31,006 nucleotides of DNA from a virus. Location of the stretch: positions 1 to 31,006 of IMG/VR virus record IMGVR_UViG_3300025818_000114. One strand, given 5' to 3'. The notes under the pieces were generated by a model. The model was given only the letters and a program-made list of their open reading frames with translations. It was not told the DNA's origin and made no database searches. Both the position numbers and the translations under genes were made by a program. Shown here one piece after another: positions 19,183 to 31,006 of the stretch. The number at the start of each line of letters is the position of its first letter. The stretch's first letter is position 1.

Positions 19183-19218
19183 GGGCTTCACAGTCCTATG
19201 TTGTTTATTGAGTGTTCG

Positions 19219-19369: not shown

Positions 19370-19384
19370 GCACCGGATTGGTGC
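19370..19384. promoter_or_regulatory. NtrC-like box, site 1
   Basis: GCACC-GGATT-GGTGC is a perfect inverted repeat with five-base arms and fits GCACC-N4-TGGTGC, the known core of NtrC (NRI) sites. It lies between the divergent promoters, about 75 bases before the possible rightward -10. Four related sites lie beyond the cassette it precedes. Confidence 0.6.
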
Positions 19385-19430
19385 ATCTTTCGTTCGCTAT
19401 CGATACAGGCGGATCGATTGAAATATACAA

Positions 19431-19462
19431 TTGTAGTTGCTGGGTTCGATTGTGCTTATAAT
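19431..19462 (+). promoter_or_regulatory. Possible promoter of the GGCC-rich cassette
   Basis: A perfect TATAAT lies at 19457-19462, about 55 bases before the ATG at 19517. A -35 is less clear: TTGTAG at 19431-19436 leaves a long 20-base spacer. This looks like a promoter needing an activator, or a weak one. A good ribosome site (AAAGGAGCG) precedes the gene it would serve. Confidence 0.45.
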
Positions 19463-19516
19463 TTGTCACCGGCAAAAACCGGCATTTTTAACCCATCGCA
19501 AAAGGAGCGATAAATT

Positions 19517-19747
19517 ATGATTAAATTTCAACTCTTCAGCCTAAAGGCCTCAGACGTTCAAAATGGTCGTATTCGTTTTGATATGTATATTTGCAATAAG
19601 CGCATTGCAGGCCTTATCGGCCTTCGCAAAAAACAGTATCGTTTCGGTTTCGATGGAGGCGACACTTTCAAGCAAGCGCATTTAGGCAAAATCACAGTAG
19701 GTGTTGAAAAGCGCAAACCACTACGCCAGCTCTGGAATTGGGTTTAG
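19517..19747 (+). CDS. Small basic protein, first gene of the GGCC-rich cassette
   Basis: The 76-residue protein is basic and aromatic, with alternating hydrophobic residues (FQLFSLKAS, RIRFDMYICNKRIAGL) that suggest a small beta-rich domain, ending LRQLWNWV. The ribosome site AAAGGAG is eight to nine bases before ATG 19517. The gene uses GGCC words unlike the late or replication genes, as do its neighbours. No family is recognised. Adjacent control sites suggest it is conditionally expressed. Confidence 0.7.
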   Translation: MIKFQLFSLKASDVQNGRIRFDMYICNKRIAGLIGLRKKQYRFGFDGGDTFKQAHLGKITVGVEKRKPLRQLWNWV

Positions 19748-19763
19748 GTATTAATCAACTATT

Positions 19764-19779
19764 GCGGCCTTCGGGCCGC
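19764..19779 (+). promoter_or_regulatory. Intercistronic hairpin with UUCG tetraloop
   Basis: GCGGCC (19764-19769) and GGCCGC (19774-19779) pair perfectly around TTCG, giving a C(UUCG)G tetraloop, among the most stable RNA loops known. No T tract follows. Five bases later comes the ribosome site AAGGATCT of the next gene. It could protect the upstream mRNA from decay or affect translation of the downstream gene. Confidence 0.7.
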
Positions 19780-19791
19780 TAAGGATCTAAC

Positions 19792-20088
19792 ATGCAAACA
19801 GTAATCGAAGTGACACCAAACCCATATAGCGATTTGCCAGCTTATTCGGTACAGGTTCCTAATGCTTTATCTGGTATGTATCTCAAAGACTATCTTGACG
19901 GTAGTCAGCCGCATTACAGTAATTCGCCGCAATTGTGTCAGATATTGGAATATCTAAACATTGAATTTGACACCATTGCCGACTATCCAAAAGACGACAA
20001 TACATTGCGGTTTCTGTTTGATTCAGAAGAAGACGCAAATGATGCCGCCGCCGTCTTCACTCAAATTCAATCTATTAAGGGGCTGTAA
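19792..20088 (+). CDS. Unknown acidic protein of the GGCC-rich cassette
   Basis: The 98-residue protein is acidic. It begins QTVIEVTPNPYSDLPAYSVQV and ends with a helical segment (SEEDANDAAAVFTQIQSIKGL). Predicted strand-helix alternation would suit a small alpha/beta fold, but no motif is recognised. AAGGATCT precedes the ATG. It ends one base before the next gene. It lies inside the cassette but is itself less rich in GGCC than its neighbours. Confidence 0.7.
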   Translation: MQTVIEVTPNPYSDLPAYSVQVPNALSGMYLKDYLDGSQPHYSNSPQLCQILEYLNIEFDTIADYPKDDNTLRFLFDSEEDANDAAAVFTQIQSIKGL

Positions 20089-20089
20089 C

Positions 20090-20791
20090 ATGCGCTTACT
20101 TTCAATCGATGGCAACTCGAAAATTGCCAAGACTAACAAGGCCGCCAAAGGCCGGTATCTATTTGCAGGCCTTTCATTAATGCCAGCCGATGACCTATGC
20201 CCGGGCGCTAAGGCCGCCGGATGCATGGAAACTTGTTTGCAATCGGCAGGCCGTGGAATATTCAAGAATGTTCAGGCCGCTCGCAAATCTAAGGCCGATT
20301 GGTTTCGATGCGATAAAGACGGGTTTCTGGACCAGCTTCGCAAAGATTTACATGCGCTTGAGCGTAAAGCGAAGCGTGAAGGCCTTCAGCCTGTAGTGCG
20401 TCTTAACGTGTTATCAGATATCGCATGGGAGGCCTATGGAATCCCCCAGGCATTCCCAGACATTCGGTTCTACGACTATACAAAGAGACAAGGCCGCATC
20501 GGTTCAAAGTTTATGCCCGATAACTATCATTTGACGTTTAGCTATTCCAATCAACCGGGATATTCGAATCAAGTCATTCGGGCATTGCATAAAGGCGCAA
20601 ATATCGCTGTAGTCTTCTCTGGTGGTTTGCCTGCCAAGTTTCTAGGTCGACCGGTAGTTGATGGTGATTTGCACGATATCCGCATTGACGATCCATCGGG
20701 AATCATTATCGGCCTTCGTGCTAAAGGTAAAGCGAAGAAGCAACCAAATAATTTCGTCGTACCGAATCCAGAGGTCATTGCCACATGCTAG
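20090..20791 (+). CDS. Conserved phage protein resembling the GP88 family
   Basis: The 233-residue protein starts at ATG 20090, one base after the preceding stop; a longer frame upstream only runs through the previous gene. The N-terminal part contains a cysteine cluster (LCPGAKAAGCMETC, residues 38-51) followed by a QSAGRG segment. Downstream are VVRLNVLSDIAWE and FYDYTKRQGRIG, and a C-terminal HDIRIDDPSGIIIGLRAKGK. This layout reminds me of the GP88-type phage family of unknown function, but I cannot confirm it. The conserved cysteines could hold a metal or iron-sulphur centre. About 11 GGCC tetramers lie in the gene, against about one per kilobase in the leftward replication genes, which suggests separate ancestry. 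Confidence 0.75.
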   Translation: MRLLSIDGNSKIAKTNKAAKGRYLFAGLSLMPADDLCPGAKAAGCMETCLQSAGRGIFKNVQAARKSKADWFRCDKDGFLDQLRKDLHALERKAKREGLQPVVRLNVLSDIAWEAYGIPQAFPDIRFYDYTKRQGRIGSKFMPDNYHLTFSYSNQPGYSNQVIRALHKGANIAVVFSGGLPAKFLGRPVVDGDLHDIRIDDPSGIIIGLRAKGKAKKQPNNFVVPNPEVIATC

Positions 20792-20850
20792 AACTGATCG
20801 AAATCGGCCTAGCTATCGGCCTTTTATGTTACGTAGTTTTTGATATGTAA
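20785..20850 (+). CDS. 21-residue membrane peptide
   Basis: A short frame starts at ATG 20785, overlapping the previous stop (ATGCTAG), and ends in TAA at 20848-20850, just before the terminator. The peptide is nearly all hydrophobic in its centre (IGLAIGLLCYVVF) with acidic residues at each end, as for a single membrane span. Stop overlap, position and composition favour a real gene, but its size makes this uncertain. It could be a small holin-like or regulatory peptide; nothing shows which. Confidence 0.45.
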   Translation: MLELIEIGLAIGLLCYVVFDM

Positions 20851-20874
20851 AGGCCTTATTAATTCCCTCACTTC

Positions 20875-20901
20875 AGCCTGCTTAATCGCAGGCTTTTTTT
20901 T
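20875..20901 (+). terminator. Intrinsic terminator of the GGCC-rich cassette
   Basis: AGCCTGC (20875-20881) pairs perfectly with GCAGGCT (20888-20894) around a six-base loop and runs straight into eight T (20894-20901). It is a textbook rightward terminator, 25 bases after the last short gene, and separates the cassette from the late operon. Confidence 0.95.
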
Positions 20902-21115
20902 GCCTGCAGTGTATGTATCGCAGGCCTTAAAAGCATTAAGCAGCTTATGCCTACAACGCATTCTAAGCGCCTCCAAGCGACTCAGCCGGTAAAGTAATAC
21001 CCTAGTATATGCCAGCATGTTGCAGGCTGTTACAGGCCTTTACAATCGGTCGTAGTGCTACAGGCTTTTCAGGCTTTCGAGACTACAGAGGGTACTTGAC
21101 CGTCTCTCACACTTC

Positions 21116-21208
21116 ATCGCCTGCATCGCCTGCACCGGCGCAAAAACAGCAACACAGACTGCATCGCCTGCACAATATGCCGGCGCTTTACAGCCTGCAC
21201 AGCCTGCA
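21116..21208. repeat. Nine-base tandem repeats around GCCTGCA
   Basis: ATCGCCTGCA occurs at 21116-21125, 21125-21134 and 21163-21172, the first two in tandem with a nine-base period. CAGCCTGCA occurs in tandem at 21191-21199 and 21200-21208, again with a nine-base period. All share GCCTGCA in one orientation, like the iterons of replication origins. The last copy runs into the first of three NtrC-like boxes. Confidence 0.75.
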
Positions 21209-21262
21209 CCATCTTGGTGCGACAGTCTGCACCGTTCTGGTGCGTCTGCACTGTTTTGGTGC
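21206..21262. promoter_or_regulatory. Three clustered NtrC-like boxes
   Basis: The sites are GCACC-ATCTT-GGTGC (21206-21220), GCACC-GTTCT-GGTGC (21229-21243) and GCACT-GTTTT-GGTGC (21248-21262). The third also has flanking T and A, matching the full 17-base TGCACY-N4-TGGTGCA. Site starts are 23 and 19 bases apart, about two helix turns, as suits cooperative binding on one DNA face. They lie 210-265 bases before the late promoter, a usual enhancer distance. I found no sigma54-type -24/-12 promoter downstream. Confidence 0.6.
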
Positions 21263-21360
21263 AGTCTGCCCTGCCCTGCTTTAAAGGCCCGGGGAGGGGC
21301 TATAGGACTTTAATATTATTATAGTACCTGCATAGACTTGCAAGAGGGCAAAATAGAACT

Positions 21361-21396
21361 TAAAAGCTATAAAAAAGAGCGTTTTTATAACTTTTA
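21361..21396. repeat. AT-rich inverted repeat with 15-base arms
   Basis: Bases 21361-21375 and 21382-21396 are inverted repeats with one mismatch (C367/A390) around a six-base loop AGAGCG. The arms are mostly A and T. As DNA this is an easily melted or cruciform-forming element. As RNA it would be a hairpin, but no active promoter upstream is evident. It lies about 75 bases before the late promoter. Confidence 0.75.
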
Positions 21397-21471
21397 TGTG
21401 ATATATCAAGCCTTTGATAACTTTACAGATCTTGCACTGTCGTCTGTTATGCACGATCTATGCCAAAATGG

Positions 21472-21500
21472 TTGACTTTGCACCGTTTTTGTGCTAGACT
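21472..21500 (+). promoter_or_regulatory. Late promoter 1 with an embedded NtrC-like box
   Basis: TTGACT (21472-21477) and TAGACT (21495-21500) are exactly 17 bases apart, with TGC before the -10 for an extended element. The spacer contains GCACC-GTTTT-TGTGC (21480-21494), a one-mismatch copy of the NtrC-like site, so a protein bound there would block RNA polymerase. The predicted start near 21507 lies about 25 bases before the first late gene. Confidence 0.8.
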
Positions 21501-21532: not shown

Positions 21533-21919
21533 ATGACTGAAACAGTAAAAAGAGGTCCCGGCAGGCCTAAAAAGGGTGAAGTTGTTGCTAAGAAAGAAGG
21601 CAACAGAGGTGTTAGAGGCCGTCCACCCGGTGATGCCGCTATCATTAACGAGTATAAAGCTCGTATGTTGGCTTCACCGAAGTCTGGAAAGGTGATGGAC
21701 GCTATATTTAATGCGGCGTTGGATGACGAGCATAAGAATCAAGCGGCGGCTTGGAAGTTGCTGATGGATCGGATGTTACCGGTTAGCTATTTCGAAAAGG
21801 ACAAGATGTCACAGGGCAAAAACAGCGTATCTATCACGATTACAGGTGTTGGTACAAAAGCCTCTGTGCAGAACGACGAAGACATTATCGATATTGAACC
21901 GGTGGAATCAGATGACTGA
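21533..21919 (+). CDS. Probable terminase small subunit with two AT-hook motifs
   Basis: The 128-residue protein begins with two AT-hook-like stretches (RGPGRPKKG and VRGRPPGD), which bind the minor groove of AT-rich DNA, then a helical segment (DEHKNQAAAWKLLMDRMLP) and a short beta-rich end (VSITITGVG) with an acidic tail. It is the first gene of the packaging module, a few genes before the large terminase, where T7-like phages often place the small subunit. ATG 21533 is chosen over a GTG at 21491 because the earlier codon overlaps the promoter -10 and would not be in the mRNA. Terminase identity is inferred from position and DNA-binding motifs. Confidence 0.6.
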   Translation: MTETVKRGPGRPKKGEVVAKKEGNRGVRGRPPGDAAIINEYKARMLASPKSGKVMDAIFNAALDDEHKNQAAAWKLLMDRMLPVSYFEKDKMSQGKNSVSITITGVGTKASVQNDEDIIDIEPVESDD

Positions 21920-22352: not shown

Positions 22353-23188
22353 GCTTATTTGAAGAGTTGCAGGCCAAAGGACGCAGTGTATTTCCAGCAC
22401 CACAACGATTCTTTGATCCTGCCGATAAAGCCTACAATCCGAAGTTAGGTGGTCAGTTTGAATACACACCCGGCGGTCGTTATTTAGAAATGGGTCCAGA
22501 AGGTCCGCAGGACATTACAGGTCAAAGGCCTAAGCAGGCTGTAATTGGTGTGACTGGTGAAGGTAAACCGGTCATGAAGGTGTCGCAAGAATTAGATACT
22601 ACCGGTGAAATTAAAAAGACCGGTCGCAAAGTAAAGACCAATCTGTTTAAGAAAAAAGCAGGTTGGAACTGGACTGAAGTTCCTCCGGGGTTTAATCCAC
22701 AACCAGATAAAAACTTTCCGTTAGTGTCTGTTGAAGACGGTAAACAACATTACTACACAGTGCAAGCTGAGTTTCCAGAAGGTGTTGATCTGGCTCGTTA
22801 TGAAAAGTCTAAGACTGAACCAAGGTTGCGTCCTACCAAAAAAGGTGGTATTCAACTCGGTGAAAAAGTCGGTGAAATTGAAGTCCGTGGTAAGAAACAT
22901 CCGGTATACAACGCTATTAAAATATTTGGTCCAGCAGGTGCGGCAGTTGGTTTAGGACTTTCTGCGCTGGGGATGTCAGATGATGTTATGGCCGGGGGTA
23001 TTAATTTAGACGATACAACACCCGGTGACGTATTAGACTTCTTAGCTCCTCTTGGGTTTGAAATCCCTAGAGCTGGTGAAGGTGCTGATGTTGTACCGAT
23101 GGATGAACAAGGTGAGCCTGTATATCCGTTTCTAGATGAGATGGATATGCGTAACAATATGTTGATGCGGAACCCTCTGCTTGACTGA
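22349..23188 (+). CDS. Unknown protein between lysozyme and large terminase
   Basis: The 279-residue protein has a charged, Gly/Pro-rich N-terminal two thirds (with LFEELQAKGRSVFPAPQRFF near the start) and one short hydrophobic Gly/Ala segment (FGPAGAAVGLGLSALGM, near residue 194-210) that might be a membrane or glycine-zipper span. An acidic C-terminus is rich in Asp and Met. It is coupled to its neighbours by ATGA at the start and TTGACTGA at the end. I do not recognise the family. A virion, holin-linked or packaging role is possible from context only. Confidence 0.75.
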   Translation: MSLFEELQAKGRSVFPAPQRFFDPADKAYNPKLGGQFEYTPGGRYLEMGPEGPQDITGQRPKQAVIGVTGEGKPVMKVSQELDTTGEIKKTGRKVKTNLFKKKAGWNWTEVPPGFNPQPDKNFPLVSVEDGKQHYYTVQAEFPEGVDLARYEKSKTEPRLRPTKKGGIQLGEKVGEIEVRGKKHPVYNAIKIFGPAGAAVGLGLSALGMSDDVMAGGINLDDTTPGDVLDFLAPLGFEIPRAGEGADVVPMDEQGEPVYPFLDEMDMRNNMLMRNPLLD

Positions 23189-24437
23189 ACTCAAAGTAGA
23201 GCTGTTACCGTGGCAACAAGAAGTATTTGATAGCCCAGTACGATTTAAGATTGTTGCGGCAGGTCGTCGTACAGGAAAGTCTCGACTAGCGGCATGGATG
23301 TTAATCATCAACGCATTGCAGACTGATAGAGGACATGTGTTCTACGTTGCACCGACTCAAGGTCAGGCACGTGACATTATGTGGAACACCCTGTTAGAGT
23401 TAGGTAACCCTGTTGTTACATCATCGCATGTGAACAACATGCAAATTAAGCTCATCAACGGTGCAACAATATCGTTGAAGGGCGCTGACAGACCAGAGAC
23501 GATGCGTGGTGTATCTCTGAAGTTTTTGGTGTTGGATGAATACGCAGACATGAAACCGTCTGTATGGGAAACTGTACTGCGTCCTGCACTGGCTGACCAG
23601 AAGGGTTCAGCAATGTTTATTGGTACTCCTCTTGGAAGAAACCACTTCTATGAGCTGTACAAGTATGGTGAGTTAGCTGATGACCCGACATATCAGGCAT
23701 GGCACTATACCAGTTATGACAATCCGTTACTAGATCCAGAAGAAATCGACATGGCTAAGAAGTCTATGTCAAGCTATGCTTTCCGACAGGAGTTCATGGC
23801 GAGCTTTGAGGCTCTTGGTTCAGAGATTTTTAAAGAAGATTGGATTAAGTTCACGGATGAAGAACCGACCGAAGGTGACTACTATATTGCAGTTGACCTT
23901 GCAGGCTTTGCAGACATTGCGGGCAAAGCAACGGGCAAATCTTCAAAGCTTGATAATACGGCTATCGCCATTGTCAAAGCCGGAACTGAGGGGTGGTATG
24001 TTGCTGACATTGTCTATGGGCGTTGGGACATCAAAAAAACAGCCCGTAAGATATTTGAGGCTGTTCGTGAATATCAGCCTATTGCAGTGGGTATTGAAAA
24101 AGGTGCGCTACGTAATGCGGTTCTTCCGTACCTAACAGATTTAATGAAGTCTGAACAACGGTTCTTTAGAGTTGAAGAACTAACCCACGGTAACAAGAAA
24201 AAGACTGACCGTGTTGTCTGGGCTTTGCAGGGACGCTTTGAGCATGGCAACATCTCATTAGCAGAAGGAGAATGGAATACAGAGTTCTTAGATGAGCTAT
24301 TCCAGTTTCCAAATCCGTTGGTGCATGACGATTTAGTTGATGCACTGGCGTATATTGATCAGCTTGCTAAGGTTAGCTATTACGTTGACTTTGAGGAAGA
24401 AGAATTTCAATTTATTGATCCAATCGCAGGGTATTAA
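23181..24437 (+). CDS. Terminase large subunit
   Basis: The 418-residue motor packages DNA into the prohead and cuts concatemers. It has Walker A AGRRTGKS (27-34), Walker B LVLDE (116-120), a FIGTPLG coupling-like motif (147-152) and nuclease acids Asp239 (YIAVDLAG), Glu306 (VGIEKG) and Asp384/Asp387 (HDDLVDALAY), so ATPase and nuclease both look intact. The start is probably TTG 23181, overlapping the previous stop; no ATG lies before the ATPase motif. At 418 residues it is shorter than T7 gp19 (about 586), as in other marine podoviruses. It acts with the portal encoded next. Confidence 0.95.
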   Translation: MTELKVELLPWQQEVFDSPVRFKIVAAGRRTGKSRLAAWMLIINALQTDRGHVFYVAPTQGQARDIMWNTLLELGNPVVTSSHVNNMQIKLINGATISLKGADRPETMRGVSLKFLVLDEYADMKPSVWETVLRPALADQKGSAMFIGTPLGRNHFYELYKYGELADDPTYQAWHYTSYDNPLLDPEEIDMAKKSMSSYAFRQEFMASFEALGSEIFKEDWIKFTDEEPTEGDYYIAVDLAGFADIAGKATGKSSKLDNTAIAIVKAGTEGWYVADIVYGRWDIKKTARKIFEAVREYQPIAVGIEKGALRNAVLPYLTDLMKSEQRFFRVEELTHGNKKKTDRVVWALQGRFEHGNISLAEGEWNTEFLDELFQFPNPLVHDDLVDALAYIDQLAKVSYYVDFEEEEFQFIDPIAGY

Positions 24438-30221: not shown

Positions 30222-31006
30222 TGGCGATCATCCAAGGTAATGCAAAGCAAGGCTCTACACGAGGCTTCTATCCTAAGACCATTGAAGGATCGCTACGGTT
30301 TAACGATGATGACTCTGCGTACCTGAGTTGGACTCCTGATAGTGCGGGTAATCGTAAGACTTGGACTTGGAGTGGTTGGGTTAAGCGTGGGAATCTGGGC
30401 GGCAATAAAGTTTTGTTTGCCGCAGGTGTTTCTGGAGATACATCTACTCATGATTCATTAAGATTTAATGTTAATGACAATCTACAATTTTTGACACAGG
30501 CGGCAACAGGTACGTTAGTTGAAACATCTGCGGCATTTCGTGATCCGTCTGCTTGGTATCATGTAGTTCTTGCACACGATAGCACTCAGGCAACAAGTAC
30601 AAACAGAGTTAAAATTTATGTCAACGGCCAATTACAAACTACTTCAGGAACTTACCCAACACTAAATGTTGATACTGCTATCAATAACAATGTTTCTCAG
30701 CAAGTAGGCGCACGTCAAATAACTGGAAGTGTTACAAACTACCTTGACGGCTACCTAGCCGAAGTCCACTTCTTAAACGGGATTGCGGCAGTTCCTGAAG
30801 ATTTCGGTGAACTCAAGAACGGTGTGTGGGTGGCTAAGACTCCAGATGTCACCTACGGTACGAATGGGTTCTACCTCAACTTCCAAGACGATACAGAGGT
30901 TGAGGCGTTCAATACAGTTTTGTGGCGTGGAGATGGCCTTAGCTCAAGCTCTGTTACAGGAATGGGCTTTGAGCCTGACTTAGTGTGGATAAAAGCTCGT
31001 GATGGC
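30221..31006 (+). CDS. Tail protein with LamG/concanavalin A-like domain (partial)
   Basis: The frame begins at ATG 30221, overlapping the fibre stop (TAATG), and is open for 262 codons to the window end, so the C-terminus is missing. A LamG-like jelly-roll domain is suggested at about residues 24-195: the YLSWTPDS start, WTWSGWVKRG, WYHVVLAHD and VKIYVNGQL strands, and GYLAEVHFLNG. The end shows GFEPDLVWIKARDG, a block that often follows such domains in marine phage tail proteins. A carbohydrate-binding role at the host surface is likely by family but not shown. Confidence 0.85.
   Translation, partial: MAIIQGNAKQGSTRGFYPKTIEGSLRFNDDDSAYLSWTPDSAGNRKTWTWSGWVKRGNLGGNKVLFAAGVSGDTSTHDSLRFNVNDNLQFLTQAATGTLVETSAAFRDPSAWYHVVLAHDSTQATSTNRVKIYVNGQLQTTSGTYPTLNVDTAINNNVSQQVGARQITGSVTNYLDGYLAEVHFLNGIAAVPEDFGELKNGVWVAKTPDVTYGTNGFYLNFQDDTEVEAFNTVLWRGDGLSSSSVTGMGFEPDLVWIKARDG

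Follow-up and report, generated by a model that had tools for sequence, protein, structure and literature searches.

Two intergenic gaps beside the terminase genes

The window analysed here, a stretch of 31,006 bases, comprises an entire IMG/VR entry, and because near-complete relatives measure approximately 36 kb, two of them being circular through overlaps of ~120 nt, it is probably short of about 5 kb. This aquatic phage has genes for a primase-helicase and a DNA polymerase, and a TerS-TerL-portal operon runs from 21533 onward. The features around the two gaps considered below are the following, box matches being relative to GCACCN4TGGTGC.

19370 to 19384, plus strand: NtrC-type box GCACCGGATTGGTGC, exact match, in the divergent gap before the GP88 cassette
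19517 to 20791, plus strand: three-gene cassette (76 aa, 98 aa and a GP88 family protein)
20090 to 20791, plus strand: GP88 family gene (PF17338, E 7.9e-45; phrog_1617)
20874 to 20902, plus strand: intrinsic-terminator-like hairpin 3' of GP88, read from sequence
21206 to 21220, plus strand: array site 1, GCACCATCTTGGTGC, exact on both strands
21229 to 21243, plus strand: array site 2, GCACCGTTCTGGTGC, exact, 23 bp after site 1
21248 to 21262, plus strand: array site 3, GCACTGTTTTGGTGC, one mismatch, 19 bp after site 2
21288 to 21299, plus strand: G-rich element CCCGGGGAGGGG, inferred candidate cosN, conserved directly 3' of the arrays
21324 to 21347, plus strand: core GTACCTGCATAGACTTGCAAGAGG, conserved across the family 3' of the G-rich element
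21404 to 21419, no strand assigned: IHF-consensus site, overlapping matches on both strands
21472 to 21500, plus strand: sigma-70-type promoter of the TerS operon, TTGACT-N17-TAGACT, read from sequence
21480 to 21494, plus strand: NtrC-like box GCACCGTTTTTGTGC, one mismatch, within the TerS promoter spacer
21533 to 21919, plus strand: presumed small terminase subunit (TerS), identified by position
23181 to 24437, plus strand: large terminase subunit (TerL), the anchor for collecting relatives

A scan of the whole window for GCACCN4TGGTGC with at most one mismatch returned eight strand-hits against 0.40 expected from dinucleotide shuffles (largest count 3 in 100 shuffles), all of them falling at five places, exactly at 19370, 21206 and 21229 and with one mismatch at 21248 and 21480; no sixth site was found in the window at this threshold. 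The five sites reported in a first-pass annotation of this DNA are thus real, and its remarks that they share T as the last spacer base and avoid genes hold for five out of five boxes, which are confined to two gaps outside credible genes among the window ORFs. Box 19370 occupies the gap between the start of a leftward ORF at 19191 and that of a rightward ORF at 19517, and the other four lie between the GP88 stop at 20791 and the TerS ATG at 21533. The likeness to the NtrC consensus that had been pointed out also proved to be close, since the window boxes carry the TGCACC-N5-GGTGCA dyad and the logo of 26 sites reads TGCACC-A...T-GGTGCA. Conservation of fixed versus spacer positions in NtrC arrays was left out, because rows picked by their fixed bases are biased. 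Box 21480 fills the N17 spacer between TTGACT (21472-21477) and TAGACT (21495-21500), near-consensus promoters are found at the same place in relatives, and two of these, L007 and L009, hold GCACTGTTTTTGTGC with two mismatches at the position of the box, which could be partly promoter sequence.

Downstream of the arrays the order of elements is array, G-rich element, core, IHF site (in about a third of phages), promoter and TerS. The family core, GTACCYRC followed by AGAYACAAAAAAG or AGACTTGCAAAAGAG, lies ~35-40 nt after the G-rich element, and the IHF-consensus site of relatives, matched strictly in roughly one region out of three, is mostly found 51-54, 62-66 or 69-73 nt after the core, that is, at approximately 5, 6 or 7 helical turns. 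In the 67 regions with automatic placement, array sites stand almost only 5' of the G-rich element; the window is not among these regions and displays the same order by eye. As a G-rich element, an IHF-consensus site and a small-terminase gene follow each other in the order of the lambda cos region, we infer a cos-like packaging site beside the arrays, with the difference that the candidate cosN of the window phage is deduced from sequence; an array of sites for host regulators is not known from the lambda cos region. The data give no clear indication of physical genome ends at the array, contig ends being just mildly clustered and two near-complete records closing by the overlaps of ~120 nt.

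Several minor observations concern the neighboring genes. The presumed TerS returned no match in family searches and its structural model is helical with low confidence (pLDDT 64), too weak for a fold search; two N-terminal AT-hook-like motifs with GRP cores are kept in an alignment of 52 homologues. GP88 is located near the genome end in several isolates (HMO-2011, Lo5R7ANS and CRP-235), and GP88 genes close to NtrC arrays also occur in L286, L287, L319, L338, L348 and L358. No cultured close relative of the family was found: the lone megablast hit, Roseobacter phage CRP-406, shares just 102 bp of a virion structural gene at 84% identity (window ~30293-30394, position inferred from the query offset). 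Likewise, the lone hit in bacterial genomes, in a MAG labelled Euryarchaeota, was rejected as a guide to the host and taken as binned phage DNA.

Exchange of array classes among relatives

Searches of viral contigs with TerL and the primase-helicase yielded 265 loci, some of which share a contig. The conservation of sites in related phages, by which the first-pass annotation proposed to judge its reading, is found in part. The triple NtrC array is kept in the close relatives L007, L009, L086, L090 and L091 (site 2 in L007, L009 and L086), and box 19370 in L009, L086, L087, L090, L091 and L094, but in other relatives the array is replaced. In fact, relatives with 91-96% identical TerS have no NtrC array, the slot of L008, L010 and L012 being filled by six to eight TTATCCACA DnaA boxes, and the more distant L017, L033, L100 and L114 carry tandem TGGCAY-N5-TTGCW sigma-54 elements. 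One array, in L037, combines NtrC, DnaA and sigma-54 sites.

The enrichment of each class was assessed between -750 and -200 of TerS in 99 non-redundant phage regions, relative to the rest of the same contigs. NtrC sites were enriched 131-fold (23 sites in 13 phages), DnaA boxes 76-fold (89 sites in 26 phages) and sigma-54 elements 62-fold (51 sites in 22 phages), and permuted motifs in these 99 regions averaged 0.10-0.24 occurrences, with at most 3. According to the site logos, DnaA boxes vary mainly at position 5 (TTATNCACA), so that relatives contain clusters of multiple boxes with a DnaA-like tolerance, and sigma-54 elements follow TGGCA[CT]...TTGC with almost no exceptions, 47 of 55 being on one strand. 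These substitution patterns agree with the specificities known for the real proteins. On the TerL tree of 94 phages at least 36 changes of class are required, against 43.0 with shuffled labels and a minimum of 7; the turnover of array class is therefore fast, and the array type differs even between phages whose TerS is 96% identical.

The divergent gap, which holds site 19370 in the window, usually has the same class as the TerS array. The clade of the window has NtrC boxes in both gaps, L012 has four DnaA boxes in the divergent gap and about ten in the TerS array, and L102 and L105 have sigma-54 elements in both, L164 being an exception. The divergent gaps of L102 and L110 contain Fur-like AATGNGAATGATTCTCATT sites as well. 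Counted over both slots there are 25 Fur-like sites, permuted motifs giving 0.1; those upstream of TerS do not clearly belong to the arrays, since most stand alone and many are found 3' of the conserved core. Taken as consensus matches, the basis of every assignment of a protein to a site, these data indicate that the two intergenic slots are very probably modular arrays of sites for host regulators.

In a panel of known motifs, sites of some proteins were present and those of others absent, no enrichment being found for CRP, FNR, PhoB, PurR, TrpR, MetJ, NrdR, matS, alpha-type LexA and others in the panel. No recognised class was assigned to 51 of 97 phages, some of which have repeats of their own. 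Other repeats in the slot upstream of TerS are TTAGTCATGACTAA in L042, TAGACTTTAGTA with a period of ~15 bp in L109 and L112, GTGTGCGC in L058 and L170, and ATATTCTAATG in L063. A parS-like GTTTCACGTGAAAC, possibly a ParB site, lies amid five DnaA boxes 525 bp upstream of TerS in L031, and single LexA-like CTGTATAN4TACAG sites are located ~115-160 bp upstream of TerS in L021, L024, L026, L037 and L100.

Possible roles of the arrays

NtrC classically activates sigma-54 promoters, and it had been suggested in the first-pass annotation that the phage senses host nitrogen status to control its late genes. In the window, no sigma-54 -24/-12 promoter in matching orientation was found at TerS; the single candidate, TGGCATAGATCGTGCA with one mismatch at 21450, is on the opposite strand, points away from TerS and was rejected. 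As a general explanation, a nitrogen-sensing switch for late genes is unlikely, because no good sigma-54 promoter stands beside TerS in the window, because the slot is not nitrogen-specific, holding DnaA boxes or sigma-54 sites in relatives, and because four of the five sites are away from the TerS promoter, mostly far upstream, and that promoter is sigma-70-like. Such a switch needs a conserved regulator, and for activation also a sigma-54 promoter, and neither was seen.

A broader version, in which NtrC-P, DnaA-ATP, Fur-Fe and LexA would report the state of the host by regulating the promoters of the cassette and of TerS (in this phage, NtrC and nitrogen), agrees with the position of both slots upstream of rightward sigma-70-type promoters, with the site 21480 inside the TerS promoter spacer, with the shared class of both slots, with the LexA-like sites near the TerS promoter in the five phages listed above and with the fact that many of the proteins are sensors. 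We nevertheless consider it rather unlikely, as the identity of the regulator is switched between near-identical phages, the arrays are mostly 200-600 bp upstream of TerS, apart from its near-consensus promoter, and TerS in the window has no good sigma-54 promoter. The alternative put forward in the first-pass annotation, operators of a phage-encoded repressor whose core resembles NtrC boxes by chance, would account for palindromes in tandem and for a box within a promoter spacer, both reminiscent of phage operators, but it is exceedingly improbable: at least three well-known host specificities, unrelated to each other and each with its own substitution rules, are matched in this one slot, instead of a single one set by a phage gene.

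Clusters of DnaA boxes resemble replication origins, and the parS-like site of L031 lies beside such boxes, which would suit an origin using host initiators. This is nonetheless very doubtful, since the phage has its own primase-helicase and DNA polymerase, and we know of no NtrC, Fur or sigma-54 array that loads a helicase. A structural role at the genome end, in which bound, oligomerising host proteins would aid packaging, end protection or DNA entry, is also unlikely, although with more in its favor. The slot abuts the lambda-like cos region (G-rich cosN, IHF, TerS), where any strong host binder would suffice, and such a role is in agreement with arrays placed almost only 5' of the G-rich element, with an IHF site at approximately helical-turn spacing, with classes that are interchangeable and mixed, and with a GP88 gene that adjoins the array and is near the genome end in isolates, e.g. 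HMO-2011 and Lo5R7ANS. Against it stand the second slot, ~2 kb away and usually of the same class, the abundant CRP and FNR, which are unused, and the overlap closure of near-complete maps together with the mild clustering of contig ends.

Arrays that match known specificities and replace each other at a conserved place are what the family displays, and from them we infer binding by host proteins, their capture as the purpose, and a benefit to the phage. We hypothesize, with a confidence that stays somewhat short of even, that the arrays capture, by titration or re-localisation, host DNA-binding regulators as the phage DNA multiplies. The candidate sites would then come to outnumber the host protein, and NtrC, Fur, DnaA and sigma-54 would be pulled off the host chromosome, while SlmA, whose DNA-bound form blocks cell division, would be activated in the wrong place; host replication, division and stress responses could thus be disturbed without any phage protein. 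Capture is favored because the quality, number, clustering and exchange of the sites fit it, as does the limited set of proteins found by consensus matching, which comprises DnaA, sigma-54, NtrC, Fur and SlmA-like sites without CRP or FNR. In E. coli there are ~200 DnaA molecules per oriC (PMC5835720) and 499-2,091 NtrC molecules per cell (PMC3870243), and a phage genome carries up to 14 DnaA boxes (L012) or, in the window, 5 NtrC sites; this stoichiometry permits titration. For SlmA, Z rings are inhibited when a multicopy plasmid carries its sites, the protein being modestly overexpressed in that system (PMC4117426). Against capture, some slots have a single site (19370), which would titrate little, 47 of 55 sigma-54 sites share one strand, a bias that a pure sponge does not need, 51 of 97 phages have no recognised class, and the arrays keep a fixed place beside the cos-like element, which is needless for titration. 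The single site 19370, the strand bias and the fixed place fit a sensing or a structural role as well.

Arrays in unrelated viruses and comparison with known systems

Paired NtrC boxes were found in at least 119 viral contigs, with a chance expectation that we estimate to be under one; for DnaA, triples of boxes are present in at least 120 contigs. Among the matches listed, most contigs with an NtrC pair have no gene in common with the window. Enrichment around these NtrC and DnaA arrays extends to Fur-like, sigma-54 and SlmA-like sites. With two mismatches allowed, the 20-bp dyad GTTAGTGANNNNTCACTAAC was counted 26 times in the 129 kb surrounding arrays, whereas 1.05 Mb of other sequence contained none; its arms resemble E. 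coli SBS17 as read from a primer (PMC4117426). At least eight NtrC boxes stand in a row in L351, and in L338 six NtrC boxes and SlmA-like dyads are followed by CGGCCGGGGGAGG and a terminase gene. An isolate, Limnohabitans phage DC31 (PQ492658.1; host Limnohabitans sp. DCL3), contains five TTATCCACA and one sigma-54 element within ~120 bp, near 20.23-20.35 kb of its record, and its genome paper makes no mention of DnaA or binding sites (PMC12195039). No NtrC, DnaA or sigma-54 clusters were found in the terminus-proximal gaps of CRP-118, CRP-235, S2B and Lo5R7ANS.

The glnA-type NtrC enhancers of enterobacteria consist of tandem TGCACC-N5-GGTGCA boxes, as in the window phage, but the phage TerS lacks a conserved sigma-54 promoter in matching orientation and the class is swapped in relatives. 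Cyanophage promoters with NtcA boxes also place a site for a host nitrogen regulator in a phage; these are promoter elements for one regulator, whereas the clusters in the family of the window are interchangeable and mostly away from promoters. Clustered DnaA boxes are shared with datA and the DnaA titration loci of E. coli, where DnaA is bound and thereby titrated, and the initiation mass rises when plasmids carry boxes of this kind (PMC5835720); datA is chromosomal and serves one protein, in contrast to the viral slot with sites for different proteins. Multicopy plasmids with SlmA-binding sites (PMC4117426) and synthetic decoy sites (PMC7826281) likewise show that cell physiology changes when additional sites move a DNA-binding protein elsewhere or titrate it; both are laboratory constructs, and neither source describes SlmA-like sites in arrays of natural phages. 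Phages with host-regulator sites and chromosomes with titration loci are each known on their own, and the open-access PMC literature, in which subscription papers and preprints are largely missing, returned no account of a phage slot with exchangeable arrays for several master regulators of the host.

Still more tentatively than for the family itself, we propose that aquatic phages share a widespread, protein-free strategy in which swappable blocks of decoy DNA next to the packaging site would trap or misplace DnaA, sigma-54, NtrC, Fur and SlmA, all master regulators of the host, and thereby upset its replication, division and stress responses while phage DNA accumulates. Should the arrays indeed act on host proteins, the non-coding DNA of phages would itself be an effector, and one could read from the arrays which host regulators are worth capturing for a phage. 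Limnohabitans phage DC31 and Limnohabitans sp. DCL3 (PQ492658.1) provide an isolated pair for studying such a takeover by DNA decoys. Were the role structural instead, interchangeable arrays for host factors next to a cos-like site would still be new for terminase biology within the open-access literature. A further palindrome, TCTTATATAAGA, recurs in the unrelated arrays of L240 and of L519 (phage DC31, 1120-2070), and is perhaps the target of a further host protein.
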